Part shown: positions 22,852 to 63,702 of the stretch, in pieces | How positions within the stretch are numbered: the stretch's first letter is position 1 | Layout of the letters: each line of letters begins with the position of its first letter | From: Moniliella sp. 'wahieum' | Lineage: Eukaryota > Basidiomycota > Moniliellomycetes > Moniliellales > Moniliellaceae | Length of the DNA: 64,000 nucleotides | Direction: 5' to 3' | NCBI GenBank assembly: GCA_003971905.1 | Contig: RSEE01000064.1 | Coordinates: forward strand, 186,001-250,000 | The notes under the pieces: model-generated | The model's database searches: none | What the model saw: the letters and a program-made list of their open reading frames with translations, nothing else | Told to the model about the DNA's origin: nothing | Program-made: the position numbers and the translations under genes

Positions 22852-23377
22852 GTCTCGAGCGTTGCTCTTGCTGTTCACATGCATTTGGCCTTGGTTCGCA
22901 CTTGACATTGTATTGAATTACAATCCATCGCGTCAAGCCAAACATTTTCATCCTGACCTGACAGCTGCAACATGGTAGAGCGTCGGCCATAGGCAGTGCA
23001 TGTATGTTAGTACACGCGTCCCCTAGGACTGAACGGAAAGATGGCATAGATCCAAATCGGGTCGCGTGTTCATAGAGCTGTTGCGCCAGACCGGACTGAA
23101 GGTCAGACCGGAGCCAAAAAGGGGTGGAAAGTGCGACATCCAGATACACATTGTCCAGCTTTGTACAGAATTGCTTCCCCCTCTGAACTAGTGAAGGATC
23201 TACCACAAGGATACGTGATAAGTCAATGAAATCGTGAGTAGTTCCTGACTTGAGGTGTCTCTGCAAACCATTGGCCCCCAAATAAGGTCCCAGCTTTGTT
23301 GCGTGATGAGGAACGCATGATGGGACTCTTGCAAGGGAGTTTCTCCAAGCTTGTGTGCTTCTTCTCTTCGCTGGCAC
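22643..23377 (-). CDS. Doubtful hypothetical ORF
   Basis: A 244-codon open frame on the minus strand ([18 protein letters not shown] onward) covers the 3' flank of IPP1 and overlaps its last 200 bp in antisense. Pieces such as [21 protein letters not shown] and [18 protein letters not shown] have protein-like composition, but I recognise no family. A further open frame upstream (23223-23501) could be a first exon. It may be a real small gene ending before 22900, or chance. Low confidence. Confidence 0.2.
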
Positions 23378-23379
23378 TT

Positions 23380-23998
23380 TCTGGAGATGGCACTATCCGC
23401 ATCTCACTCTGCTCCCGCAGCAAGTTGCAGCCCTTTTGGATCGTAGTATGCAACATTGTGTGCGGTATAGGGTATGATGTTGAAGAGAGTTTGCTTGTCA
23501 CGAAAATGAGAATGAGCAGGCAAAGACGAGATAGGTAGAAAGAGCGTCAAAACGTTGGTACTAAACGGGTTTCGTCCTGCCTCTGCAAGGGTCAGGTTTA
23601 GCGTATTAGAAAGGAGGATATCGGTAACAAGTGCTGTCGGGCAGATGTCTGTATACTTGTACTAATGTGTACTACGAAGGCAAAAGTGAGTTCTTACCTA
23701 TTTGCACCCAAATTAAGCACCCAAATGTACTACTCGTGAGTATAAAGGAAAGTCATTTTAACTGACAGAGGTGACGATGTTATTCAGAGTATTCGAAGGA
23801 AAGTGTAGGAACGACCACGATCTCTTGGATGAGAGATCCCTCCCGAAGAGGGGGAACGGGTGAACCAATGAAGGAGAGTATCATCAGGATAAGAGGCCCC
23901 AAGGCGTTGCTGAAAACAAAACGCCGGGCTTGCAGACCTGGGGAAGGTACGGACACTGGTACAGGCAACGACACAAGAAAAGAATCAAGGGTAAAGAA
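23380..23998. other. Gap 3' of the repeat-protein gene
   Basis: Lower-GC DNA with short unrelated open frames and no recognised gene, RNA or mobile element. Confidence 0.35.
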
Positions 23999-25200
23999 TT
24001 AGTTGAAGTTGTTGTGGTCTCTCCACCAGAGGCCACGTTGAGCACACCATCGAGATGTTGGTCTGAGGCTTGCTGGGAGCCGGTGCCTGCGGGCCTGGAA
24101 GTTGTTGGTGGTCTCGCCGAAGGGCGTCAACGTTGAGCACGCCATCGAGGATGTTAGTCTGAGGCTTGCTGGGAGCGGTGCCTTGCGGGCCTGGAAATTG
24201 TTCTCAATGTCCCCGCCCAGCACCCACGTTCACCAGGCCATCGAGGATGTTGTCGCGCTTCGACTGCTGGAAGTGTGTTTCACCTCCCCCCCCAGAGCAC
24301 CCACGTTGGCCACGCCATCAGGATTTGACGGCGGAGGGTTGGAAGTTGTTGTTGATCTCTCTCCAAGGGCACCCACGTTCAGCAAGCCATCGAGGATGTT
24401 GTCGCGCTTGGACTGCTGGAAGTTGTTGTTGATCTCCCCATCCAGAGCACCCACGTTGGCCACGCCATCAAGGATGTTGTCGCGCTTGGATTGCTGGAAG
24501 TTGTTGTTCACCTCTCCCTTCAGCGCACCGACATTGACCACGCCATCGAGGATTTGACGGCGGGAGGGTTGGAAGTTGTTGTTGATCTCTCCTTCCAGTG
24601 CACCCACGTTCAGCACGCCATCGAGAATGTTGTCGCGCTTGGATTGCTGGAAGTTGTTGTTCACCTCCCCGCCCAGAGCACCGACATTGACCACGCCATC
24701 GAGGATTTGACGGCGGGAGGGTTGGAAGTTGTTGTTGATCTCTCCTTCCAGTGCACCCACGTTCAGCACGCCATCGAGAATGTTGTCGCGCTTGGATTGC
24801 TGGAAGTTGTTGTTCACCTCCCCGCCCAGAGCACCGACATTGACCACGCCATCGAGGATTTGACGGCGGAGGGTTGGAAGTTGTTGTTGATCTCCCCGCC
24901 CAGAGCACCAACGTTCACTAGGCCATCGAGGATGTTGTCGCGCTTGGATTGCTGGAAGTTGTTGTTCACCTCCCCTTCAGGGCACCGACATTGGCCACGC
25001 CGTCGAGGATATTGTCACCCTTGGATTGTTGGAAGTTGTTATTGATCTCTCCTCCCAGGAGACCGGCGTTGATCAAACCGTCAAGGATGTTCTGACGACG
25101 GAGGTGAGCAGGACGTTGGTTGCGGACAGGCTCGGCCTCAACGGAAATTGCCAGAGTAAGGACGGCGGCCAGGGGTAGCGAACGTAGTGGTGAACTTCAT
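23999..25200 (-). CDS. Secreted tandem-repeat protein with dibasic sites, candidate kexin-processed peptide precursor
   Basis: The N terminus MKFTTTFAT, continuing LAAVLTLAISVEA one frame over, is a clear signal peptide. It is followed by EPVRNQRPAHLRRQ and then about 14 copies of a 25-26-residue unit with core NILDGVxNVGALxGE and NNNFQ(Q/P)S. Units are joined by KRD or RRQ (KGD once), so almost every N-terminal unit is bounded by a dibasic KR or RR, the consensus for Kex2. The last three units have a different linker (QARKAPAPSKPQT-like) and degenerate further. The stop at 23999 follows HNNFN. No transmembrane segment, cysteine or known domain is seen. The layout matches fungal KEP precursors such as Ustilago Rep1-type proteins, but the sequence family is not one I recognise. 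A TATA box lies 150 bp upstream. A few frame shifts occur (about 24990, 24870, 24375, 24300). Confidence 0.82.
24010..25100 (-). repeat. Coding tandem array, 75/78-bp units, about 14 copies
   Basis: Units alternate between 78 bp (linker KRDN) and 75 bp (linker RRQ, one Asn codon fewer). In the middle of the array the real period is therefore a 153-bp dimer. Unit starts can be followed by the repeated CGCCATCGAGGA/AATGTTGTC string on the plus strand, for example at 24541, 24616, 24694, 24769 and 24847. Outer units are more diverged than central ones. Confidence 0.93.
24541..24846 (-). repeat. Exact tandem duplication of a 153-bp dimer
   Basis: By eye, 24541-24693 and 24694-24846 are identical over all 153 bases. 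The rest of the array differs by several substitutions per unit. This indicates a recent duplication or local gene conversion in the centre of the array. Alternatively it could be an assembly artefact of the repeat. Confidence 0.85.
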
Positions 25201-25350
25201 TACGAAAAGAGTGTTGTAAGGAAGGGATTGAAAGGTCGGTGGGGGAGGAGAAAGCTTGGTATAGGCGGATGTGAGGAAGAGCGGAGGGAAAGAGGGAAAG
25301 AGAGAGGGTATGGTGAGAGAGAAAAGAGGGGGGCACCATCCGTTTTCGAC

Positions 25351-25358
25351 TTTATATA
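25351..25358 (-). promoter_or_regulatory. TATA box of the repeat-protein gene
   Basis: TATATAAA on the minus strand, about 150 bp upstream of the ATG at 25200. A pyrimidine-rich coding-strand tract (25230-25330) follows it, typical of fungal transcription start regions. Most other genes here lack so clean a TATA. Confidence 0.6.
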
Positions 25359-26130
25359 CTTCCTTGTGGACACCCTTTCGTCTACCATACCCCTCTCTCC
25401 CCCTCATCCAGTGTCGTTGCTAGAGAAGTCTGTAATCAAAATACAGTCTAAGGCTCAGGGACGGACAAAAAGGCCCCATCCCGCCAGTGTGCACGTCCTC
25501 TCCATCAATCATCCTTTTCATTCAGACCTGGGCAACGCAGGGTCCACCATAAAATATACAGGGTTACAGCCCAACTCACGTAGTCCATTGTGACATGTGA
25601 GGCCTCAGCGCCTCAGCCTGAGGCATCATCGAGATCATCCTCGGTTTGACCTCATCGACACTGAATATGGATGGCTGCGTATGCCATTATGGCCATTGTT
25701 TTCCATAATCCGGGCGGTGGTGCCTCCCAGTGGTCGGGCACTAAGATAATGTAACGGAGGAATGTACAGACCAGGGTCCGCGGTGCATCAATAACATGTA
25801 ACAGTGAAAAAAGGGGGCATGATATGGTGAGAGGCTGAGGCCCTGAGGAGCTAACGCTAAAGCAGCAACCAATGAACGTGATCGCGTGGAGAGGGAAACA
25901 AAGGAGACCGAAATGTCGTAAAGATTGCAGAAGCTGGTCTTTGTTGCTACAGATCATACTCAGACTGTACTCACTAGCTACACACTGTGCTCAGTGACGA
26001 TATACAAACTATAGCGAGTCTGGTGAGGTGAGGCCTGTGTGAGTGCGTGAGCGGTGCGTGCGGTAGTAAAAGCATGTAAGTGTTATCGTGATTTTTGTTG
26101 GCAACAGATTATGTCGATTATAAGTATACA

Positions 26131-26176
26131 CGCGTTTCTTTTTGTCCCAGCCTTAAGCTCGGTCTGTCAATGATAT
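26131..26176 (+). repeat. Copy A of a short dispersed repeat
   Basis: Contains GCGTTTCTTTTTGTCCCAG, then CCTTAAGC and TGTCAATGATAT. Two further copies lie at 55641-55698 and 56117-56181, about 30 kb away, in another gene-poor block. Confidence 0.7.
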
Positions 26177-27035
26177 TATAGTTACAGGATGAACAACACT
26201 TAAAGTCTTCGAACTGTTCTACACTCAGATCTCAGATACAGGCTGGAAGTCTTTTGTGTGTTGATCAGATCGATCAAGGGGAGAAGAGCAAGAGGTAGTA
26301 GAACGATGCACGATGGCGGAGCAGCCTAGTGTAACATGTAACTAGTGAATCCCGTGATCCGTGATTCACAGGAGGCCTCTCTCGCCCTAGCCCTCTGAGA
26401 GATCTGAGATCTGAAGAGAGGTCCATAAAAGCGATGCTGTATTGGAGCCAGAGGAGAGAGTGAGACAAACATTTTTTCGACTATGCGCTCCCATGCGTTG
26501 GTAGGTGTTTCATTTGCATGGTCTCAAAGTCGGTGATGAGATGCTGGTGGGATGCAGGATATGGGCCAATACTAAGACCATCCTTTACTGTCTCCTCCAC
26601 GGCTTAGTTGACGCAGTTGATGGGTGGGTGATAGGGTGGCGACATGTCAAGCTTCAAGATTCAAGCTCAAGCTTCAAGCTTCAAGCGTCTAGTTACTAGC
26701 TTTACTATTTGAGAGTGATACGTGGCAAATGCTGGCTACGCCATCGGAATGCGAGCATCAATGGCGACGACAAAAGCAATTTACCGACCTTCAGAATTCT
26801 CAGAACATTATCTTCTTTTCGACCGCGTGCAGTGCGGTCCTATGCATCCCGGCCTAACACGTTGCTGTGTCGAGTGGGTGGCCGAAAATGATCGACAGGG
26901 CTCTTCGAACCGGCTTATCCTGAGCACCTCAGCACCCTTTCAACGCCCAAGCGCCCGAGAGTGCTGTCAGTGGGCGCGGTTGTTTTATAACAGGAACAAA
27001 TGTTGGGTTGCTCCGTAGTGATGATCGATGAATGA

Positions 27036-27065
27036 TGACATGTGACATGTGACATGTGACACCTG
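27036..27065 (+). repeat. Tandem TGACATG microsatellite
   Basis: Three head-to-tail copies of TGACATG followed by TGACACC. Single copies of TGACATGTGA recur at 25591 and 27665, and the complement-like GTCACATGTCAC at 56461. Confidence 0.75.
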
Positions 27066-28110
27066 TGGGACAACTATTATACTAGGGGCCGCGGTAGGCC
27101 CTCGCGGCTGTCAAAAATGTTATCAAGCTGTTATGCATGCCATTGTTTGGGCCCACCCCAGCTACGTATCCTCTGTGTTGTCGATCATGCCGGGTTGGGC
27201 TGTTTTGTCCTGGAGGCTTTTTGTTTCCGGATCGAATCCGCCCGATGTTGGGTTTACAACGTACGCGATTATTACACGCGTGTGGCATCATGCATCTGAT
27301 CTGGGTGTTAATTGATTGCGATAATCGATAAGTACTAAGTGTTGATCATCCATCGCAGTAGGTCATTCATGTCTCACACCATATACTCCCTTCTCCCGCT
27401 CCTTTCCTTTTTGTACTCTTTATTTTGGCAAGGAAGCCATCTTCGCTAAAACCCCCTTTTCACAGCACCCCGGGCTAGGTCGTCTCAGCATACGCTGAGC
27501 GCGCTGAGCCTGCCCTGTGAGGCAGGTGCCCCTATGTAAGAGTCGGGCGATACACGAGTGAGACCAAGTACCAAAAGGGAAGTAAAGGATGCACTGGTAG
27601 GAGAGAAGGGAGAACAGGATCGGCGGGAAGAGCGGTAAAAGACGATTTTCCTGATTAGCTACCGTGACATGTGACGCCTAATACCTCATTTCTTACGGGC
27701 GAGATGCCAGTGAGTGGTCGAGGCCGCTGCCGAAAAGGTATATAGAGCGCGTAGATCGCGACGAAGCCAAAAAAGGGCCGTTACGCGTTACCCCGTGATG
27801 CGGGTAACAGAGGAGGTTGTACTCGAACAGCGGCGTGGGGCATACTTGTTTTGCGACCGGTCTCTGGGCCCAAGAAATGACATGACGGGGGGAGCTGAGG
27901 ATGCAAGAGATGTTGGTGTGTGGGGGACATGAACGCGAAACGCAAAATGTGTACGCTACGGGGAACTGCGGCGCGAGTAGGGGCAGCCCCGTTAGGGATG
28001 TTCGTCGGTGCGCAGTCCACTAGCTACTGTTGATATATTTATCAACATGGTTGGAGCCTCGACACACCTCTCGCGATTTCAGTAGGCCAACACACCCCCT
28101 CCGACAGCCA

Positions 28111-28712
28111 ATGCCGCGCCACAAAAGACCGTACGACCTGAATTCCTCTGGCCCTGCCGGCTATAAGATTTCCGGGGGGCCGTTTATGGCGCGAACGATT
28201 CCAGTGCCGGAAGATTTGCCGTGGCACCAATTTCGGATTTGACTTGTGAAGACTGTCACACCTCAAAAGCAGCAACCAACACAAACACATGAAGCGAAGC
28301 CTTGCAGCGATGGTTCCTCAACAGACGATAGCTGGTCTTTCCGGTGCCTCTCCCAATCAAGAGACTGAATTGGATGGCAACCGCCCTGGCCCATAAAGCG
28401 CGAGAGGCGGAGGATGAGGGCACCGCACCGTTGACACTGCAATTACTAAACACTACTACTTCGCCCTCCGCCCGCCGACAGAAACGATTATGGGGGGTCA
28501 CCTTCCAAGCGCCCGCACCGTGCCAGGTCTTCCGTGAACGCTTCGGATTAGGACGCCGAATGTTTGGAACCCAAGCTCAAGAGGTTCTTCGGGAAGACGT
28601 TCTTCGGAGAGATGTGTCCGAGAGGAGTGATAATACATCGGACGATGATGGTTCGGAGGAAGATGAACCTGATGCTACGTTATTGACAGGCTATATTAAG
28701 TGTCCCACATGA
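28111..28712 (+). CDS. Weak hypothetical ORF with acidic tail
   Basis: Two adjoining frames read MPRHKRPYDLNSSGPAGY (28111-28242) and, after a gap, a 122-codon ORF (28344-28712) with REAEDEGTAPLTLQLLN, RRQKRLWGVTFQAPAP and an acidic tail DNTSDDDGSEEDEPDATL. The composition looks protein-like and unlike the surrounding low-GC DNA. No family is recognised. It could be an orphan gene or a remnant of a mobile-element protein. Confidence 0.3.
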
Positions 28713-31693
28713 CCCGACGAATCTGAGATCCAGTTATCGGAAGGGATGAAAGGCAAGAGCACATGCGTCCGAACTCACTATCAAGAACCTCGAACAGCCT
28801 CTAATTTCTTAAAACCCCACCCACACTACAAAACGGGAAGAAGCGGGTGTCTTTAGATCCACACTCTATTATAATGTGCCTACCCACTGATGATATGCAT
28901 CCCATTCACTTCTGACCTCATGTCTTCCTCTCCACACTCCTGCTAAATTCAGTAAATTCTGAAAGTGTTTCATTACACTCTCCCATATTTTGCATCCTTT
29001 CTCTTGCTGCCAGGAAAGAGCTACTCTTGCTCCGCATGAAGCTTGCTGGTAAGCTTGGAGAGCATCAAATTCCCACCTGGTATACACTTAACAAAATCCG
29101 CCAAGAAATCAAAAGGGGAGAAGCAACAGGACGTGCCCAGCTACATATGGGTTCAACTGTTTCTCAGAATACTATCAATCTTTGTCAGGCATGCCAGTAC
29201 GCTAGTATTACTTTCGAGAACAACTGAGTCTGCGGACAATGATACAGGACCTTCCTGTCAAGCGCAACGGTGTCCGAAATCTTTCTGATGAGACGTGTTC
29301 TGCAGTGTTATGTCAGGTTAACCCTCTGTCGTTTCTTCCAAAGGGAAACTCATCTGGCAGTGACTGACGTCTACTACATACATATATGTGGTCGCTAGAA
29401 CTAAACGGGCGTAGTTATAGCTGTGTAAACAGCTCCTATTATACAGAAGGTAAATATAGAAGTCGTTCGGGTTCAAGGACTGATTGAAGTGATGGCCCGC
29501 CAAGGGAAAACATTCCGGTTCAAGGGGTTTGCAACCAGGATCTATAGAAAAGAAGGGAATAGACTCAACGCAAAAAATATGGGAGTAAATGAACCATTAA
29601 CCAACAGTGGTAATTAGTACGGCCCTCTACTGAAGGAACAAGGATGAAGGGCGAGGATAATATTGTTGGACCGAAGCTTCAGGTTGCAGTGACCTGAACC
29701 TCTTGGGGATCTCTGGAGAGTGCTGTGATCCCTGTGTACAGTTTACACCGCTTGTTTCGTTGTGCATAATAGGGGCGCTCTGCGTGATATACGCCAGGTG
29801 TACCGTGTGGACCTGTGTTGATCCATTTACCCGGGGCGCTGAGCACTGACCTCAGCGTTGACCGCCGGTGACCACAAAGGTTAAAGGCAACTAAGAGGTG
29901 GAGTTCCCTGTGTACCGTAAGATTTGACGAAAGTGGAGCCGATTAATCTGGCCAATTTAATCAGGGGATAGGTGAAGATAGAAGGTGAGGTTTTTTTTGA
30001 AGAAGCCAAAAATGGATGGTGGGGAAGAAAATCCACGGACCACATTTATTGGTTACACAGGCAGGGACACGACGCAGTGAAGGGAGAACGGGGGATAAAC
30101 AAGGTGCCAGTGGGGAGCAGTGAAGTCTCGCTACAGTGGAGATATAATTCCTGGCCGAGGAACAAAGAACAACTGGATCCGCAGCGCTCTGTCCGCAATA
30201 GGGACGAGACGTTGTATAGTGCGGGTAATAACAGAAACCAATATAAAGAGGCAAGGGGCGACTGTCGTCGTCAAGGATATACATAGGTCGATGGCTGCTC
30301 GGAACCCCAGACAGGGCTAGAAAGCTTTACCCCTGAACTTTGGGCTTGAGAGCGAGAGCTCTGTTAAACGTTAATAAGGCCCGTTGCGGACAAAGCACCG
30401 GACCTTAATACTAGGACTTAGGACACAAGCATAATATGCGTACATGGCCCCGTAGCAGAGGTACTGGTTCCTGTTGGATTAAGCGCTAAACGTGATGACA
30501 TCTTGGCTTCCCTATAATAGCGAGGTTGCATATGGGCAGTTGTGCGCAATGTGGCAGTGGCGAGAAGCAGAGGGGCAGAGGTCGAGCCTACTAAAACTGT
30601 TGAGGGTTAGGATCTAGGATCGGATGGGAGAATAAGAGGAGTGGGAAGTGGCACCACAGATAAGACTCTGCGCTTTGAGAGGGAGGGGCAAACTGCATGG
30701 CTTTTTTGGTGTACTGCTTGAGAGCTTGAAGCTTGAAGTTGATATAGTTTGAAGCTTTTGGAGAAGAGAATCGAGGATACATTTTTTAAAGTCTCAGTAA
30801 ACTCAGTGTACCTGTTGTGGAGAGTGGTGGCTGGCCCAGCTTGCTGTTCCTGATGCTGCCCCCCTCTGACACGTGGATCAGCTGACGAGTAGTGGCCTAG
30901 CTATATAGCTAGCTAGTTGTCGTTTTGGGGCACGTGGGCGACGCATCGCATCAGCAACCTACTCCAGCCAGCCACACGCCCCGAACAACTCGCACAGGGA
31001 CGATACCCACAGATAAGGCATCAGGCCAGTCACAGCCACCTACCAGCTGTTCGGGCTCGCCCCTCAAGCTCAGCCCAAGCGCTCAGCCTCTTTTGGGGAA
31101 ATTGGCGGAGGGGCGGAGGCATAGGGACAGTGTACCCAGGCTTTCCTCCAACCACGCCGGCCAAATTGAGCACTCAGCGCCCCAGGCGCTCCAAGGCTAT
31201 ACTCATACTCAGTTCACTCCCCAGTACAGTTAGTACCCGTCTGTGTATACTCCGTGTGCTCAAGCCCCAAGCGAGCATCGTTCATCATGCATGCATCACC
31301 GTTTCTCTATCCGGCGTGTGCCTGGCGTTCGTTCTTGTGGGCGCTCGGTAATTGATAATCGATAATCGCCTCGCAGTTGTCGGTCGCAGTCTTCACTGGG
31401 CTGCGCTGTGGCACTCTTCAGCCTGAGCGCCTACAGGCGCCTACAGGCGCCTACCTGAGCAGCAGATGCTGGGCCCAGCTGCCCCACCACGCCGCACTGT
31501 ATACGTGTGCGTCGACAAAGAAGGAGCGGTAACCGATGATCGATCGCTCAGGCTGGGCGCTGTGCTGATCGATCAATAATCGCGGTTACCACCAGGGTCA
31601 TCACCACCACACAACATCTGCACGTCCCCCCCACTCTGTGCCACACACGAACGCCTTCTAGCACTCGACGATTACTGTTCCTTTTCGTCTGAT

Positions 31694-33164
31694 ATGGCCG
31701 TGAATTCACGGCGCATCATCTCAGTTCTGATCGGTTGTATCGTCCTCGTCTTGCTCGGCACCTGCGTTGTCCTAGGCTCTGTCTGGAGTTTGTATCATGT
31801 CGACAAGCGCGCCATGATTACCCCCGAGGAGGTGCAGATGATCGTCTCTTCCTGGGATCAGGCACCTACTACACCCCCCAGCAACTCCTCCTCTTCCCGG
31901 ACTTTGCCTTGTACGGTGGTCACTTCACCCCGGGCGTGGGGCCCAAGAAGACTCGCCCTGGCGAGAAGATTCCTCGGCTAATCCACCAGACGTGGAAGAC
32001 AGATACTCTGCCCGATAAGTGGGTCCCAGTGCGGGAAGAGTGCCGGGAGATGCATCCTGACTAGTACGTTTCCTACTTTTCCTTGCTCGGAGGAGGGAAC
32101 AGGTACTTCACCTCCTTCCTTTTCCCGCATCCGCTCTCAGGCCCTGACTTTGTGAGATCACTCAGTGACTACATTCTCTGGACGGACGAGAGCTCGCGCG
32201 CGTTTATTGAGGAGCACTACCACTGGTTTCTCTCGACCTTTGATGCCTATCCTTACCCATCCAGCGTGCCGATGCAATCCGCTACTTTGTCCTGCATCAC
32301 TTTGGCGGCGTGTACATGGACTTGGATATGGGCTGTCTCAAGCCCATGGACCCACTTCTGAGCTTTGACGCCATCTTGCCTCAGACGATACCGGTCGGGG
32401 TATCGAACGACTTGATCTTCATCACGCCCAGGCACCCATTTATGGAACGACTTTTGATCCACCTCCTCCTCTTCAACCACAACTACTTGCTCAACTACCC
32501 CACTGTCATGTTCTCCACCGGACCGATGCTCGTCAGTGCTAGTTACGCGCTTTGGGTCGATGCCAACGGCGTCACCCTCCCTTCCGACACGGAGCACCCG
32601 CACCGCGGGTTGAACGGAATCCGCGTCCTTCCTAAATCCTTGTACGGCAAAAACCTTCCGCCTGAGGTGGCTCGGCAAACTGCGTTCTTCAAACACTTTT
32701 ACGGCTCTTCTTGGCACGCCAACGATGCCGGATGGATCAAAGCGTTGGGCCGGGGGGGGAAGTACCTCTTCCTCCTGGGCCTTGGCGTGGTCATCTACGG
32801 ACTACTGCAACGGGCCAAGCTGGTGCCTTCGGTGGGACGAGTGGCGCACATCGTCCGCTGTGGTCGGGCGGGGGACAGACGACCGAGACCGCCCTTGGAC
32901 ATCCACCCTGAAGAGGACGAGGAGGAAGAAACGCTGTTGTCGAACCAGGCGGAAACTTACCCGCTCACTCCGACCCACTTTTCTATACGCACTGAGCGGC
33001 AGCAGCATGAGCACGAGGCAATGTTGTCCGCCCCGTCTCAGCGTACCGCAACCGATACCGCTCGCACACCCTCACCGAGCGAGGGACTTGGCTTTCTCCC
33101 TCTCCTGAATCGTTCCCCTACGTCGTCGCACACGGACTTGCATGGACATCATGATGACGCTTAA
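31694..33164 (+). CDS. SUR1: GT32 glycosyltransferase, MIPC synthase (Sur1/Csh1)-like
   Basis: Golgi enzyme family that adds mannose to inositol-phosphoceramide, or related alpha-mannosyltransferases. A type II membrane anchor (ISVLIGCIVLVLLGTCVVLG) follows the start MAVNSRR. Then come KIPRLIHQTWKTDTLPDKW and the join of MHPDY to DYILWTDESSRAF across a 102-bp intron (32064-32165). RADAIRYFVLHHFGGVYMD is the donor-site region, and its DXD motif is in YMDLDMGC. Later blocks are PVGVSNDLIFITPRHPF, then STGPMLVSASYALW, and HFYGSSWHANDAGW. A second TM (YLFLLGLGVVIYGLLQ) precedes a disordered Ser/Thr tail of about 100 residues. Two single-base shifts lie before 32310. The stop is at 33162-33164. 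Sur1 versus another GT32 member is an inference from the second TM and size. Confidence 0.85.
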
Positions 33165-35508: not shown

Positions 35509-35593
35509 GGGTTCGTGGTGTAGTGGTATCATGCCTCTTTAGGGTTTCTCCAACTCGTAGAGGTGGTCCTCGGTTCGATCCCGGGCGGACCCC
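35509..35593 (+). tRNA. tRNA-Pro (AGG) with a 13-nt intron
   Basis: The acceptor stem GGGTTCG pairs with CGGACCC. The D-arm is TGGTGTAGTGGTA. The anticodon stem is CCTCT/AGAGG with loop TTAGGG...T, giving anticodon AGG after removal of an intron in the canonical place (after position 37). The T-arm is CTCGG TTCGATC CCGGG, and the last base C is the discriminator. A T-rich Pol III terminator follows within 5-10 nt. The sequence closely matches eukaryotic tRNA-Pro(AGG). Confidence 0.92.
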
Positions 35594-37096: not shown

Positions 37097-39346
37097 TTAC
37101 AGGTGTGCCTTTGCCCGCAGCGCATGCTGCAAGCGCTGGGCAATGACAGCATACTGAGGCAGCGCTTCTGGGTTCTGCAGCGTCGCTGGACTAACAATGC
37201 TGATTGGCTGGCCATTGAGGATCTTCTTGATTGGCACCTCGACCTTCTTGCCATTCAACGTCTTGCACACCCCGCCCGCTCAGGCGCACAACGAACCGGG
37301 GCACGTGGCGCGCACTGCGCCGCGCTCGAATCAACTCTTTCACTTCATGCACCAACTTGCACCACGTCGCTTCGTCCTTCACCACCGCCCCATCCACCTC
37401 CACCAACAACACCACCACCTCATCGTCCCCCCGGGCACACGTACTCCCCGCCACCGAATCCTGGATCGCCGCTACCAACCCTGTACCCGCCTCGATCACC
37501 TCGTACAAGTCCGACGATCCAAACCGGATCCCGCTCGGATTCAACACGCCATCCGACCGGCCCCGCATGACCAAGCCCCCATGGCACGTAAGCAAGATAA
37601 AGTCGCCGTGGTGCCAGCTGCCGGGCGTCTGAGCATAGTACGCATCAAAGTACCGTTGCCACGGCTGGTTCCAAAATCCCAGCGGCTGCGAGGGAAATAC
37701 GGTACGACAAACCAAGTCGCCCTCGGTCTCTGTCGGCAAGCTCCTGCCCGCTCCATCGTCCACTTCGACGTGCATGCCCAATGCGCGGCACTGCACTTCC
37801 CCGCGTACACTGGCAGCGCCGTACAGTGCCCGCCCAACGCCCCACACAGATCCGTCCCACCGGAAATCGAACCAATCAGCACATCCCCAATCGCGTCTTG
37901 GATAAACGGGTACAGGTCGGCCCGGAGCGGACTGGCGGTAGAGAGGACAGTGTGGACTTTCAAATTGGGATAAACTTTGCGCGGAACGTACCCGCTCCCA
38001 GCAAGGAAGGAGAGGTACGCTGCCGACGTACCAAACACAGTTACGCCCCATCGGTTGGCCAAGTCCCATAGCACCCCCACCGGCGACAACGGTGCCCCAT
38101 TGTACAGCACCACTGTGGCCCCCGAAAGAAGCGCGCTGATGCTCCAGTTCCACATCATCCAACCCACCGAAGTGTAGTAGAAAATACATCGTCCTCATTC
38201 AGGTCGCCCTGGATCAAATGTTCCTTGGCAGCTTGCAACAGCATCCCTCCACTCCGGTGCACGATCGCCTTGGGCACCCCGGTCGTCCCACTCGAAAACA
38301 ATATCCACAAAGGAAAGTTGAACTCGACAGGCGTAAATTGGATCGGGTGTGCTGGTCAAACGAGCTCGGGCTCAGAAGCGCGTCCCACCCCACATACTGC
38401 ACCCCGTCCCGCCCATCCCGCTCTTGGACCAACGTAGTAAGCGGCACCGAACTGCGCACATCTTCCATCAGCACCACCGTTTGCAATTTGTCTTGGGGCG
38501 AACAGCACAGGCCGGGCGGAACGTCCTCGAGGCCGTGGCCTTGCTGGGCCTCCTGCACAGGCGGGAGCGCCACCAGGCGGCTTACTACATCGTCCACCTT
38601 GGCCAGGTGGTCATGAACTTTGCCCGCGTACGGCGCTGACGTGACGGCAAACAAGACCTTGGGACGAACGGTGGCCAAACGGTCGAGTACCGCGTCGGGC
38701 GCCAAATCAGCAGCGGCCGACACCCAAATCGCACCCAGCGCCGAGGCGGCAAGAAAGGCAATCAAGTTACTTGCAATGTTGATGGCATAACTTGCTACCC
38801 TGTCGCCCGGTCGGACGCCCATTGCGTCCAGTGCGTCCTTCACTTTGCCCACTTGCTCCCACAACTCGGCACGGGTAAAGCACTGGTCACCTTGGCGCCC
38901 AGCACGGCCCTCACTTGCAGATACCAGCGCCAACTTGTCCCGCCCCGCCTGCCCGGGCGAGCAGTACCGCAGCAAATTCTCAGCAAAGTTCAGCTCGCTT
39001 CCGCTGAACCAGCGTGGCGGGGGGAAGAGCGGTGGACGCGGATCGATCGGGTCAGTCATGCCTTCCCCAGGCTGGACCAGGCCACGCCCAGATCCCCCCA
39101 CAGCACTGTCCCAGCGCCGCGAGGACAAAATGCCCACATGGTCCCATACACCCCAGAACAGAGCTGGCTGCGCAACGGACCAGCGCCACAACTCGTCGTA
39201 CGACGAAAGTTGGATCCCATGCTGCTGCTGGATGTAGCGGAGTAGACGCCCGGTGCCCGTTTGGGCCAGCGGCTTGGGGGTCCACACTAGCGCACCTTGC
39301 TCGGCGCGCGCGGCTCCTGTTGCGCGGGGGCGTTGCTCGTGCTCAT
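37097..39346 (-). CDS. AACS: Acetoacetyl-CoA synthetase
   Basis: Cytosolic adenylate-forming (ANL) enzyme that activates acetoacetate for sterol and fatty-acid synthesis. It starts MSTSNAPAQQEPRAPS, then LVWTPKPLAQTGTGRLLRYI. The family N-terminal domain includes WVSAAADLAPDAVLDRL (near 38740). The AMP-binding P-loop FSSGTTGVPKAIVHRSGG lies at about 38265-38300. It is followed by YTSVGWMMWNWSISALLSG, the ATP-contact SGGTDLCGAL, SWHHGDFILLT and MRGRSDGVLNPSGIRFGSS. The catalytic-lysine tail reads KTLNGKKVEVPIKKIL, ending RLQHALRAKAHL with a TAA at 37097-37099. Length is about 690-700 residues, as in the family. Frame shifts occur near 39290, 38330, 38185, 37790 and 37270. Bacterial and animal homologues share this motif order. 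Confidence 0.93.
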
Positions 39347-39843
39347 GCTTATGCTTGTGGTGCCGGCGGAGATGCCAGTGGGGACGGAGGGGGGAGGCGA
39401 GGGCAAGCAGGGAAAAGCGGGGGAAGCAGAGGGGATGTATTTCGGGTGGAGACGGCAAGGGGGACCCGGTAGCCGGAGTGTGGCTGGGCCGGTGGGGGAC
39501 TGAGTACTGGGGTAATCGATAACCAGTGGCTGGTTGGGGGGCTGGGGCGCACGCATTGACAATGTCCTGGATCGGTGCAACCGAGGGGACTGAGTAACTG
39601 TGTACTGAGGTTGGGGCGCTGTGGCTACTGCGGGGCTCCGCGCTCCTCCTCGGCTATGGGCGGTGGCTGGGCTGGGGTATACTTCTACGGTCGGGATGCT
39701 TTCCCCCCATCCCCACTCTCGTACTCAGCCTGAGTCCTCTCCGTCGCTTCGCCCCGGCGACTATCCATTGCATGTTACACAGTAGATTCAATGTCCCAGA
39801 GCGGTCGTATATAGATAGCCTGGGGTGCGCGATCGGCCAGCAC
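39347..39843. other. Intergenic gap between AACS and MET2
   Basis: About 500 bp holding the AACS promoter and the MET2 terminator. GAGTACTG/TGTACTGAG motifs lie at 39500 and 39602 and GGTAATCGATAA at 39511. No gene is supported. Confidence 0.35.
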
Positions 39844-48406: not shown

Positions 48407-50689
48407 TCAGAAACCGAAACCCCCGTTGTCTACCTCGATCTCCATCAGACCCAAGCCAGGAGGAGCGACGGTGGTGGGAACGATGACGACTGACTTTGGG
48501 GGGTGATGGTCCATGTCCATGTCCATCCGCTTTTTTGGATTGGGTGCAATGGTGCTGTTTCATCAACGACCATGACGTGCGAGCCAATGGTGGGCACCCC
48601 ATTGACTACCACAAACGCCAATGCAGGACCGGGAGGGAATATGTTGTTGTCGTTCGCCTCCAGTGGTTTTACGTCCAGTCGTCCTCTGTTCGAGGAGAGA
48701 GGTGAAAGAGCGTTGGCCCATGTTCATCCCATGGGTCGAGAACCCTGTCCGAATCAACTTGACCTCAGCATGCATCGCCTGGTAGGCCGAATCAAATGTC
48801 AAGGTGAATTCCCCGTTCGCTAAGCCGTAGCCAAACCGTTTGGGCAACGTCCCTTCAAACGTAGGTCGTTCCTGATTGTACCAGGATGGGTACCAGCGCT
48901 CAACCGAACGAACCGTAGCCCAGTGCACGTCCGATTGGTCCGCATTCGGGTTGGATCCAGACACGAGCACCGAACCATCAGCCAACAGCGTAGCTGAGGA
49001 ATGATACATTCTTCCCGTCGTCAAACGCCGCTGGCGTAAACCGCTCGCCCAGGGGAGCAGAGGGATCGTATACATGCACCTCATGCTCTGGGTCATCACC
49101 ATAGCTTTGTCCCACAGGCTGTACCGTCCCCATCCCATAGTAGATCCGTCAGCCCATACGCCCCCATGCCAAGAACACATCGTTCAGGCGCCAAAGACAA
49201 GAGCAGGAGACAGGCACTATTTATGATGATAAAGCAAGAAACGGAAAGAAAACGTACCTTGCCAATGGAGTTGGGATCAGTATTGTACCCGCGGTACCTT
49301 TGGTAACGCCATTGCCAAACCAGATCTTGCCGTCCGGGAGGAGGATGAGTTGGCCCATGCTGCGGGCTAGGAAGCGGGTCGGTTCGTTCCCACTGCGGCT
49401 TGCGGGTTAGGGGAGAAATTTGCTCGCACACCGTACTTGCTGAAGTGGTAGTGATGGAGGTGTTGACCCCACTTTCGTTCCCCCACTCACTCTCCGACGC
49501 CAGCTCCATCCCTCCACAGAACAACACCGTCTCCTGGTAGGAATTTTCGGGCGTGAGGGGAAGGAGTACCATCGCCCCTGAGGCAGGGTAGACGCGAGGC
49601 ACACTCGCACGGGGAAGTGGGTACTCTTTCTGGGATCTTAGGCTGAATACAATAGCTTCGTATCCCGCCTGGACCAAAAGCATACCATTGGACAAGAGCG
49701 TTGTGAGTGGGTAGAGCGATAGGGGCACGGTCCGATTCAGTAGATCCATGTATTGTGCCTTGCCCCCATTACGGGGCGGGAAGAATTCGTACGTTGGCTC
49801 GTTGGAGGTACGAGAAGGAACGTAGCCTCCGCTGTTGAGATCACATGAATGGATTTGTTTGGGTCAGTCTCGTTTTCCTTCTCTCCTCTCCCTCCTCTCG
49901 TCGTCACCGTTGCATTTAATTGGGGTCTCCTCAACCACTCACTCGCGCATCCCACCCAATATAACCACCGATCCGTCCCCCAGCGTCTCGACCGAGGGGT
50001 ACCACCGTTCCTTGTCCAACCCCGTACTATTCTGTGTCCATTCGGGCACCCCGTCTCCAGACCCACTCTGACCGTTGGGATGGAGAAAGCGAATGGCATG
50101 ACCACCGTTGTAGTCATCATAGGCGCAGTACCCTCGGGCACGGCATCTCCGTGGTACCCACCGCCTTGTTCCCGCCCGTAACGATCCAACGGCCGTCACC
50201 CATCGCGGCCCCGCCCGCGCAAAAGGGATTGGCACGAACAGCCATGGTGGTATAGTTGTTGGTGACTGTGTTGTATTGGGTGGCCCAGGCGGGATGGCCA
50301 TTGATTTGGGCAGGGTTGTTTTCGGCCTTGTCCAGCATGTAGACCTTGTCGTCGCCTGCAAGGATGGAAACAAAGGAGAGTTGCATTCGTCAGGCATTCG
50401 TAGTACTATATACTGAAAAAGAGCATGAACAAAAGAGGGTCGTGCGCAGCCGGATCGGGGGTCGAGACATGATTCTCCTCGTATGATGTGGCAAAAGTTG
50501 GGCTCCAATTGGAGTAAAGACTAGTAGCGAGCCAGCAGGGAAACACGTACCTAGAAACATCATCTGAGCAGAAATGCCGGCGTTGGGGTTGACGACGGTC
50601 ATGTGCTGGGCATGGACATGGGCGGGGTAGGCAAGGAGGGTGGCCGCAAGGAGCGGGGCGAGGGAGAGGAGGGTTGTATGCGGCAGCAT
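48407..50689 (-). CDS. Secreted glyoxal oxidase (AA5_1 copper radical oxidase)
   Basis: Extracellular copper radical enzyme oxidising aldehydes such as glyoxal and making H2O2. The signal peptide is MLPHTTLLSLAPLLAATLLA, ending AHVHAQH. After MTVVNPNAGISAQMMFL, intron(s) in 50380-50550 lead to DDKVYMLDKAENNPAQINGH. Kelch-like blades follow: RWIVTGGNKAV, then ERWYPSVETLGDGSVVILGG, YEFFPPRNGG, PLTTLLSNGMLLVQAGY and ETVLFCGGMELA. The C-terminal domain shows RMYHSSATLLADGSVLVSGS, SNPNADQSDV and ERWYPSWYNQERP, the Tyr/His copper-site region of glyoxal oxidases. PPGPALAFVVVNGVPTIGS ends the fold, and a short tail reaches a stop at 48407. A second intron lies near 49150-49260 and a third near 49850-49950. 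Several frame shifts occur. A TATATA element on the minus strand at 50846-50853 lies about 160 bp upstream. Confidence 0.88.
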
Positions 50690-61028: not shown

Positions 61029-63702
61029 TCAATCAAAAGCATAGAGCGAGCGGGCATAGGGAAAGTTATCAATGTTAGCTTGGCGCTGCAACCGCTGGGA
61101 CAGAGCGGATCCGTGTCTAGGCTCATTCGGTTGGGAAGGGAGGGACGTGAGGCAGAGGGCGAGAAACAACCCTCCTCCGTCGTGACCATGAGGATCGGGC
61201 TCGGCAGGACGCGGCCCCACAGGGGCACGTCCAAGGAAGTCACGTTCCGCTCTGCTCCAATCGGCGCCAATGTGCCCTCCCCCGAGGAGCGCAGGGGCAA
61301 CGGACGAGAGGGCTGGGCGCGCCGCGAGACCCGCCACACTCACCGAGTGCCTGCCCAACTGCGATCGATTAGCACCAGCACTTCCAACAGTAGGGTTTGT
61401 CACGACCGAATCCATCCACCCCAGCGACGACGATGAGGTGGGCCAAGGAAACCGGCCCGTGTTGTTGGCCAAGTGGGTGTCAGCCCAAGCAGCGGCAGTA
61501 GGCCGCGCCTCAAGTGCAGTCAAGGAGCCGGTCCGCTGAACGGTGTGGGAACGGGGTGAAACGGGGCAGCATGAGCAGAGATGGTGGTCTTGTTGGAAGC
61601 TTTCCAGACTGCCACTGGGAGGAGGCATGCGGTTCCCGCTGCCAGCCATTGCCTGTTGTCCAGAAGGGTTGATATTGGACGGCCACATATTACCACCGTG
61701 ACCACGGTCGAGAAGGAAGAAGTCATTCATCGGAGTGCTGGGGAGAGCTTCTGCGCTTGAACGACGGCTTGAGCCCGGCGACGGAAGACCAATGTGGTCG
61801 AGCAAAGAGGGCTCGAATTGCAACGCAGAAGACGTGCTTGACATGGCTGGCGCCAGCGGATTCAGCGACCCCTTCGCAGAGTTAAATGGCTTCCACGGGT
61901 CGGGGTGTAGGGCAGTCAGGGATCCAGTGCGGTGTAGGGATTGGGTTGGGGTTGCGGGCTCCAGGCAGGCATGCCGTGGCTGGCTTGGGTGGGGGTGCTC
62001 TTGGGGGCCATGTTTGCCCGTGAAGAAGGGTAACGGGGGGGCATGAATAATGATTGTCCATGTGCTTGACCGAATTGGTCTGATCCAGTAGCTCTCGACG
62101 GGTGCACGCCCGTAGCAGGGGCACCAGTGTCCTCGCCCACCAGGCCCGTAGCCATCACTTGCGGGGACATGTTCCAGTTCAGCGAGCCCGTGGGCACCAT
62201 GCGACTAAGCGAGGGGCAGTGCCAATCTGGGCCAACATACACACGCACGACGGCACTCTCTGTTTGGTTGGGTGCCGAGACCAATTGGCCATCCAATTGC
62301 TGTGTGGCGTGCCTGGCATCGATGCTCCGAGCATAGGTAAAAGAAGCAACGCGATCATGCGACGGATTGTCACCATGAAAGCCAGCGGCAGTCATATGGC
62401 CAAACTGGGATCCCAGCTGCCAGAGCATCACCTCGTCAAACCCGAGTGAGTAGAGGCCGTCAATGAATATTGTTTCAGGTTGCTCGACAGGAGGACCATG
62501 GTCGTACAAGGGTCAATGGTTTCTTCCCCGGGAATTAAGGACAGACTGGGGCAAGCCGGCCCTGGTGCAACATTGGGATTCAAGCCAGCTGGCATCGACG
62601 AAGCAAAGAGATCATGCAGCCAGTTAGAATAGGTTGTGGCGTCCGACGACGAACGGGGACGATCGTGGGCCATCCGTTCACAGAGATAGGCATTCTCTCT
62701 GACATTATTGACCGGGTCCGACTCGCGACGGTAGCGAGAATTTTGCATGTGGCCCTCCTGTTGGGCCCAGGCAGGGGCGCGGGTCTCCTTATCGGACGGT
62801 GCGACTGATGCGGGGCTGCGCTGGACAATGGCGTACGACACATCCAGTGTGTAACCAGCCCAGACATACTGGTTCAACTTCTTGATCACCTGGCGCGCCT
62901 CATCTGGCGTCGCCATATCGATAAACCCGCGACGACGGGCTTGGGCATCAAGCATGGCTAGAATCATGCAGTGGGTCACACGGCCAAACTGAGAAACCAG
63001 CGCTTCGAGGTCCTCAGTGGCCACCTCGATGGGCAAGTTGAGCACATACAGGTTTGTGTCGTGCTCATGGCTGTCAAGATCATGGTTGCAGGTGGCCGTC
63101 GAGGAAGAAAGCAGTAGTGGCAGCTGGAGTATAGTTCGTCTTGGACCGGGCATCGAGAGTGTGAGAAGAGGCAGGTGGTGGGCGTTGGTGCGGCTTGCTC
63201 GCGTGGCCCGGAGATGAAGAGGAGGTAGAAGAGAGGGGGGGTGGGGGGGTGCCAACAAGCTCGACCGACATGGGCTCGCCAAACATGACCAAGCCCGAGA
63301 GACGGCGGGTAGCAGCGAGGGCTTCGTCGGCTGTGGCGAAGCCAATCTCGGCCACGGAGGAGGTGGCGGGGGAGCGGGGTCCTGGGGAGAGTGGATGAAC
63401 TGGAACGAGACAACCTGGCCGCACTGGCCAAAGAGGAGGCGGAGCTGCTTCTCGCATGCTGTGTGTGGGGGAGGGGGGGGGCAGAGGGAGACGGGTCAGC
63501 ATGAGGAAGGCGCATGGGTTGGTCGAAGAGAGGAGGACTGACCACTAGAGCCAATGTGGGAGACGATAACGGTGCGGGGGCGGGCAGGGCGGGGGGTGGC
63601 GGTGGCGATGGAGGGGCGGTGGCGGGGGCGGGGGGCAGTGGGACGGGCAGCGGTGGAGGCGAGGGGCGGCGGGCGCTGCGCAGAGGAGCGGGGGGCGGGC
63701 AT
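61029..63702 (-). CDS. RNA-binding protein with two RRM domains
   Basis: Starts MPAPRSSAQRPPPLASTAAR. RRM1 begins RTVIVSHIGSS near 63570. After a GT...AG intron in 63440-63540 it continues FGQCGQVVSFQFIHS and SVAEIGFATADEALAATRRL, ending FGEPMSVELVG. RRM2 has RNP2 NLYVLNLP and RNP1 RRRGFIDM (about 62920-63060), with EVATEDLEALVSQFGRVTHC between them and DVSYAIVQRSP at its end. A long Ser/Pro/Gly-rich tail follows (SDPVNNVRENAYLCERM, then PNVAPGPACPSLSLIPG and GLVGEDTGAPATGV). The last 270 residues form an open frame ending FPYARSLYAFD at 61029. Length is about 850 residues. It may regulate mRNA, as basidiomycete Rrm-type factors do, but no orthologue is named. Five or more frame shifts occur. 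Confidence 0.75.

Follow-up and report, generated by a model that had tools for sequence, protein, structure and literature searches.

The question raised by this locus is what a fungus would make from a gene that encodes a signal peptide, a run of short repeats joined mostly by dibasic linkers and nothing beyond the last repeat, after which the stop follows directly. The gene (gene A) lies on the minus strand, from 25200 to 23999, of what we call the window: the whole stretch of 64,000 nucleotides analysed here (C64:186001-250000, from an assembly of 69.5 Mb in 223 contigs). A sequence-only reading had described a signal peptide and about 14 units with the core NILDG...NVGAL.GE.NNNFQ, and 14 units, with the core ILDGxxNVGALxGExNNNF, were indeed located within 25088-24005 by a nucleotide profile that is blind to frame and was built from 27 in-frame units of gene A and its paralogue B, eight of them from the window copy itself. 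The array scores 918-1035 in Tandem Repeats Finder, far from chance. Its features are as follows.

25353..25358, minus strand: TATATA, the TATA box of gene A, 158 nt before the ATG
25198-25200, minus strand: ATG of gene A
25134..25200, minus strand: signal peptide, MKFTTTFAT... and then, in another frame, ...LAAVLTLAISVEA; a frame change lies within it, and it is intact in the copy on contig C90
25095..25100, minus strand: RR preceding unit 1, at the end of the short propeptide EPVRNQRPAHLRR
24194..25088, minus strand: units 1-12, with KR or RR in 10 of 11 linkers and KG after unit 1
25088, 25010, 24933, 24859, 24781, 24706, minus strand: core starts of units 1-6
24628, 24553, 24475, 24397, 24322, 24248, minus strand: core starts of units 7-12
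24005..24152, minus strand: units 13 and 14, whose cores start at 24152 and 24054; RKAP...PSKPQTN-type linkers from unit 12 on
23999..24007, minus strand: F-N-stop closing the last unit (NNNFN, then the stop at 23999-24001)
24233..24976, minus strand: P0001, the longest unbroken frame of the array (248 aa), with both ends outside the gene frame; used as search query
24362-24868, minus strand: the folded stretch of P0001, used as AlphaFold2 input

With all three frames read, 10 of the 13 linkers in the window are KR or RR, one is KG (the matching linker of C90 has KR) and two, the last ones, are of the RKAP...PSKPQTN type; the final one begins ARRH in the window, where the frame breaks, and ARKAP in C90. 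The statement that KR or RR stands between nearly all N-terminal units holds. On the plus strand, opposite the array, a frame of 229 aa with a regular repeat is open from 24356 to 25045, probably as a by-product of the repetition and not as a gene.

The surroundings of the array include a tRNA-Lys at 35509-35593 (plus strand), an AMP-binding, acyl-CoA-synthetase-like gene at 38217-39653 (minus), a glyoxal-oxidase-like gene at 49099-49863 (minus), an RRM protein gene at 62431-63495 (minus) and an exon resembling mannosyl phosphorylinositol ceramide synthase (GT32) at 32244-33161 (plus), whose top database matches are only about 56-64% identical, so that this fungus lies far from its sequenced relatives. 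GC content is lower around and beyond gene A (0.47-0.52 in seven of the eight kilobases of 23000-31000). Elsewhere in the genome, contigs C104 and C111 carry matches to STE3-type pheromone receptors, which are expected in the basidiomycete mating system.

Is such a gene intact? We took the contig pairs C64/C90, C39/C15 and C7/C55 as two haplotypes each of genes A, B and C, respectively; the pairing was aligned for A and B, and the 600 bp before the ATG, aligned for all three genes, are 93-98% identical between paired contigs. The frame-broken pieces of the genes were read separately, with no repair of the sequence. The window copy of gene A changes frame many times, and its signal peptide, which is present, is spread together with the array over all three frames. 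On C90, the other haplotype, the gene has eight units and a single frameshift: one frame holds the signal peptide with the first three units, a second frame the remaining five; five of its seven linkers are KR or RR. Failure of the signal peptide once the reads were corrected had been named beforehand as a refutation of the precursor reading; C90 answers it, being the copy of gene A in which the signal peptide is intact, with a mean h-region hydropathy of 2.6 and VEA at -3..-1 (by inspection and hydropathy). Between the haplotypes the aligned piece 24647-30265 shows 89.7% identity and the sequence to its left 95.6%, the lower value being due in part to the inclusion of the repeat array.

If the frame changes were real, the locus would be a decayed gene, and the many breaks of the window copy are what a pseudogene would look like. 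Over 21.6 kb of flanking sequence, however, comparison of the window with C90 shows 339 mismatches but 403 gap openings, an excess of gaps that points to an indel-rich raw sequence; with the gaps split between the two copies, about 10.7 gap openings would be expected per copy per 1.15 kb, which is the order seen in gene A. Since the C90 copy has but one break and dN/dS among the units is well below 1, decay is extremely improbable. The evidence supports assembly error as the source of the window breaks rather than proving it, because some of the gaps will be true differences between the haplotypes. Unit number also varies between haplotypes (14 and 8 in gene A, 13 on C39 and 10 on C15 in gene B), a difference that may itself be due to assembly collapse.

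A whole-genome protein search returned at least three genes that share the unit (A, B and C), each on two contigs, and a search with gene C units returned the same set of at least three. The signal peptides of B (C39) and C (C7) show, by inspection and hydropathy, a hydrophobic core and a VEA cleavage motif. Gene B has KR after roughly every second unit: on C39 the 12 linkers comprise six KR, four KG or NG and two RK, and on C15 four of nine are KR. A Pfam hit of gene B to MAX_effector (15.1 bits against a cut-off of 27, E 0.023) was sub-threshold and was set aside as noise. Gene C (C7, C55) is organised otherwise: a signal peptide and three units near the start are followed by a Ser-rich stretch, and a single last unit adjoins the stop; KR stands only between its second and third units. 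Its frames are interrupted too, we read its first exon as joined by an intron, and no anchor was visible in the sequence of the protein as read. The gene C protein (L012 on C7, L013 on C55) is rich in Ser, His and Lys.

Comparison of the A and B units (12 and 9 distinct in-frame sequences, 108 pairs) gave dS 1.07, dN 0.199 and dN/dS 0.19, with ratios of 0.15 within A and 0.33 within B, figures drawn from pairs that are not independent and that gene conversion between units would shape as well. Mismatch rates between A and B at codon positions 1, 2 and 3 were 0.22, 0.15 and 0.44. On this comparison the units are under amino-acid constraint. The TATA box that had been remarked upstream of gene A recurs in all six loci (A, B and C, both haplotypes), 141-158 nt before the ATG; for three independent genes at the local frequency, the probability of such placement by chance is about 1.6e-5 for a 41-nt span that was picked after the positions had been seen.

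Would these proteins be cut? A kexin P domain was found on C165 (E 6.6e-27), and the catalytic part, which adjoins it and is read in a different frame there, matches a solved kexin (E 1.3e-115); the genome encodes a kexin. Kexin-processed repeat proteins (KEPs) are defined by a signal peptide together with three or more similar repeats, each no shorter than 8 aa, that lie between the dibasic sites KR or RR (PMC6339444, section 24; PMC7329392, section 13). With its signal peptide and its repeats, well over three, between KR or RR, gene A answers to this in-silico definition, and we are confident that it has KEP architecture, as the sequence-only reading had proposed, with cleavage as a prediction.

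Cutting the unbroken stretches of gene A in silico gave peptides of 23 and 24 residues, as had been foreseen, without Cys, rich in Gly and Asn and with a net charge of -1 to -4; those in clean stretches begin with DN or Q. One further piece, of 25 residues, was rejected as no true product, since it starts at the frameshift of C90. The window copy would yield nine single units (units 3-11), one KG-joined double (units 1-2) and a tail of three units (12-14) that is probably left uncut; the C90 copy would yield five singles and a tail, unbroken there, of 88 residues, and paralogue B has a similar tail. The clean stretches of gene B gave pieces of 26, 52, 52, 24 and 50 residues, cut-off ends aside.

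Peptides of this size from a layout shared with alpha-factor-type and other linear KEPs could be soluble signals or effectors, directed at the fungus's own receptor, at a host or at a competitor. Against this, the cores vary within a single precursor (six distinct among the eight in-frame units of the window copy, seven among seven on C90), though some gene B cores are identical to each other; no Ste13 dipeptide (XA or XP) follows KR or RR in the clean stretches; and gene B leaves many units paired and gene C holds its units on a Ser-rich chain. The difference in unit number between haplotypes points the same way, since it would be tolerable in a material and need not be in a hormone. We regard a soluble role as unlikely.

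The shape of the units was approached with AlphaFold2, run on 169 residues of a window frame as a single sequence with no alignment. The best of five models (pLDDT 80, pTM 0.75) is all-beta with no helix; the others have pLDDT 78, 78, 63 and 56, so that two of the five are poor. In the best model the first two units have three strands each (QILD or NILD, VNVGAL-like and VNNNFQ-like), units three to six have a short strand and one 14-residue strand run, and seven units, the last partial, are joined into one regular beta structure in which all six inner dibasic pairs (positions hand-counted) fall between strands. From the strand pattern, and from structural matches headed by beta-helices, we infer that the chain may close into a solenoid with one coil per unit; Foldseek gave no significant match to the model (best E 0.065), and its list holds, likewise without significance, FapC at rank 3 (E 0.15) and CsgA at rank 34 (E 4.1). 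AlphaFold2 may fold any regular repeat in this manner, and we treat the beta model of gene A as a lead.

A single beta structure running through seven units would also suit a repetitive wall protein that is never cut, its KR and RR being an unused feature of a duplicated linker; gene B, with units that have no dibasic pair between them, and gene C, with its one KR, could be cited to the same effect. What speaks for cutting is that the KR linker of gene A is 21 nt long and the RR linker 18 nt, with different codons, and yet both keep the dibasic pair, and that KR persists in gene B linkers despite change of the other residues. The position of the dibasic pairs between the predicted strands and the kexin in the genome count in the same direction; one window linker is KG where C90 has KR. 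An uncut protein seems unlikely, slightly less probable than a soluble peptide.

Hydrophobic moments tell against the beta shape that we prefer. In 9 of the 20 distinct A and B cores and in two of the four C cores, fewer than 5% of shuffles attained the helical moment; for the strand moment this was so in none of the 20 and one of the four, with no correction for multiple tests. A membrane-active helix suits these moments better than one strand does. The earlier description of the peptides as amphipathic is thus weakly borne out if they are helices and not at all for the A and B cores as strands. Amphipathic helical peptides with a defensive or lytic role would account for these moments, but the predicted peptides are negatively charged and rich in Gly and Asn, the other two C cores have no helical moment and the model has no helix, and we give a membrane-active peptide very little credence.

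Our preferred explanation, which we hold to be somewhat more probable than all others together, is that gene A encodes a kexin-processed repeat precursor whose peptides form a self-assembling surface layer. A transcript driven from the TATA element would be read, the signal peptide would route the protein into the secretory pathway, a Golgi kexin would cut it after KR or RR and a Kex1-type carboxypeptidase would trim the basic residues from the peptides. Since each single unit is one repeat of the predicted regular beta fold, the released units could stack again once outside the cell, forming fibres or a layer on the wall, as with the smut repellents. Most products of paralogue B would be double units of 50-52 residues, and protein C, with units at both ends of its Ser-rich stretch, could fasten this layer to the wall, a tethering role that is a guess. 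The sequence-only reading had left the choice among signalling, surface and effector peptides open; the evidence now leans towards the surface, short of proof. In all of this the signal peptides, repeats, dibasic linkers, paralogues, kexin gene and amino-acid constraint are read directly from the DNA, and cleavage, trimming, assembly and surface role are what we infer from them.

We further entertain, as a speculative and rather unlikely extension, a functional-amyloid kit in which one 19-residue coil is issued singly (A), doubly (B) and borne on a stalk at both ends (C). If this were true, proteolysis would set the number of coils per subunit, the gene C coils on their Ser-rich stalk could seed and tether the fibre, and the whole would be a eukaryotic counterpart of curli or chaplins, arrived at by convergence. 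One unit occurs in one genome in three forms (predicted to be mostly cut, half cut and stalk-borne) with the putative cut sites between predicted strands, which gives a testable case for wall material that assembles itself from KEP products; the gene A units offer short synthetic peptides on which self-assembly could be tried.

How do these genes compare with known systems? The family had been called unfamiliar, and we agree at the sensitivity reached: no homologue was found in a database that contains smut proteins, with a length filter that excludes proteins as long as Rep1 (652 aa) or Hum3. The unit is not among the conserved motifs named in one section of a survey of 250 secretomes, which may already list a relative. 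Dikaritin RiPPs of the ustiloxin type combine a Tyr-containing core with a UstYa (DUF3328) partner; Tyr is absent from the in-frame A and B units, and a search for UstYa gave no matches, as did its control. Pfam scans gave no curlin or chaplin match up to E 10 for P0001 and up to E 1 for four more pieces, with HMMER filters that drop most weak matches, and hydrophobins were likewise absent from the matches of the five pieces scanned from A, B and C. Curli CsgA, Pseudomonas FapC and the streptomycete chaplins are functional amyloids with short repeats, and none of these systems is known to use kexin cutting. Alpha-type pheromone KEPs have Ste13 dipeptides after the Kex2 site, whereas the gene A peptides start with DN or Q.

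Among the smut proteins, Rsp1 of Ustilago maydis, a protein of 260 aa whose eleven repeats measure 18 or 21 aa and have putative Kex2 sites, is closest in size to gene A, but its repeats are described as hydrophilic (PMC4617103) and the gene A cores are mixed hydrophobic and Asn-Gly; its length lies within the filter, and no match came up in that database, which may or may not include Rsp1 itself. Hum3 of the same species, with 17 Kex2-separated repeats of 31-36 aa (PMC4617103), resembles gene A in carrying such repeats inside a larger secreted protein, but a hydrophobin domain follows them, whereas in gene A the last unit closes the protein. The layout of the Rep1 repellent precursor of U. 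maydis is, by description, like that of gene A: a signal peptide and about a dozen Kex2-cut repeats that give small peptides and a larger piece, with no Ste13 signature in either. The 12 repeats of Rep1 measure 34-55 aa, longer than the 23-24 aa of the gene A units, though the gene B doubles come within that range, and Kex2 cutting yields 10 small peptides together with a 228-aa one (PMC4617103); a putative orthologue has been assigned in Tilletia by a loose tblastn rule (PMC9172201). The Rep1 peptides form surface-active amyloid-like fibrils (PMC4617103), and these Kex2-cut repeats are the precedent for reading the products of gene A as a surface material. On our best reading, which draws on likeness of description and claims no kinship, the gene A peptides would work as the smut repellents do.
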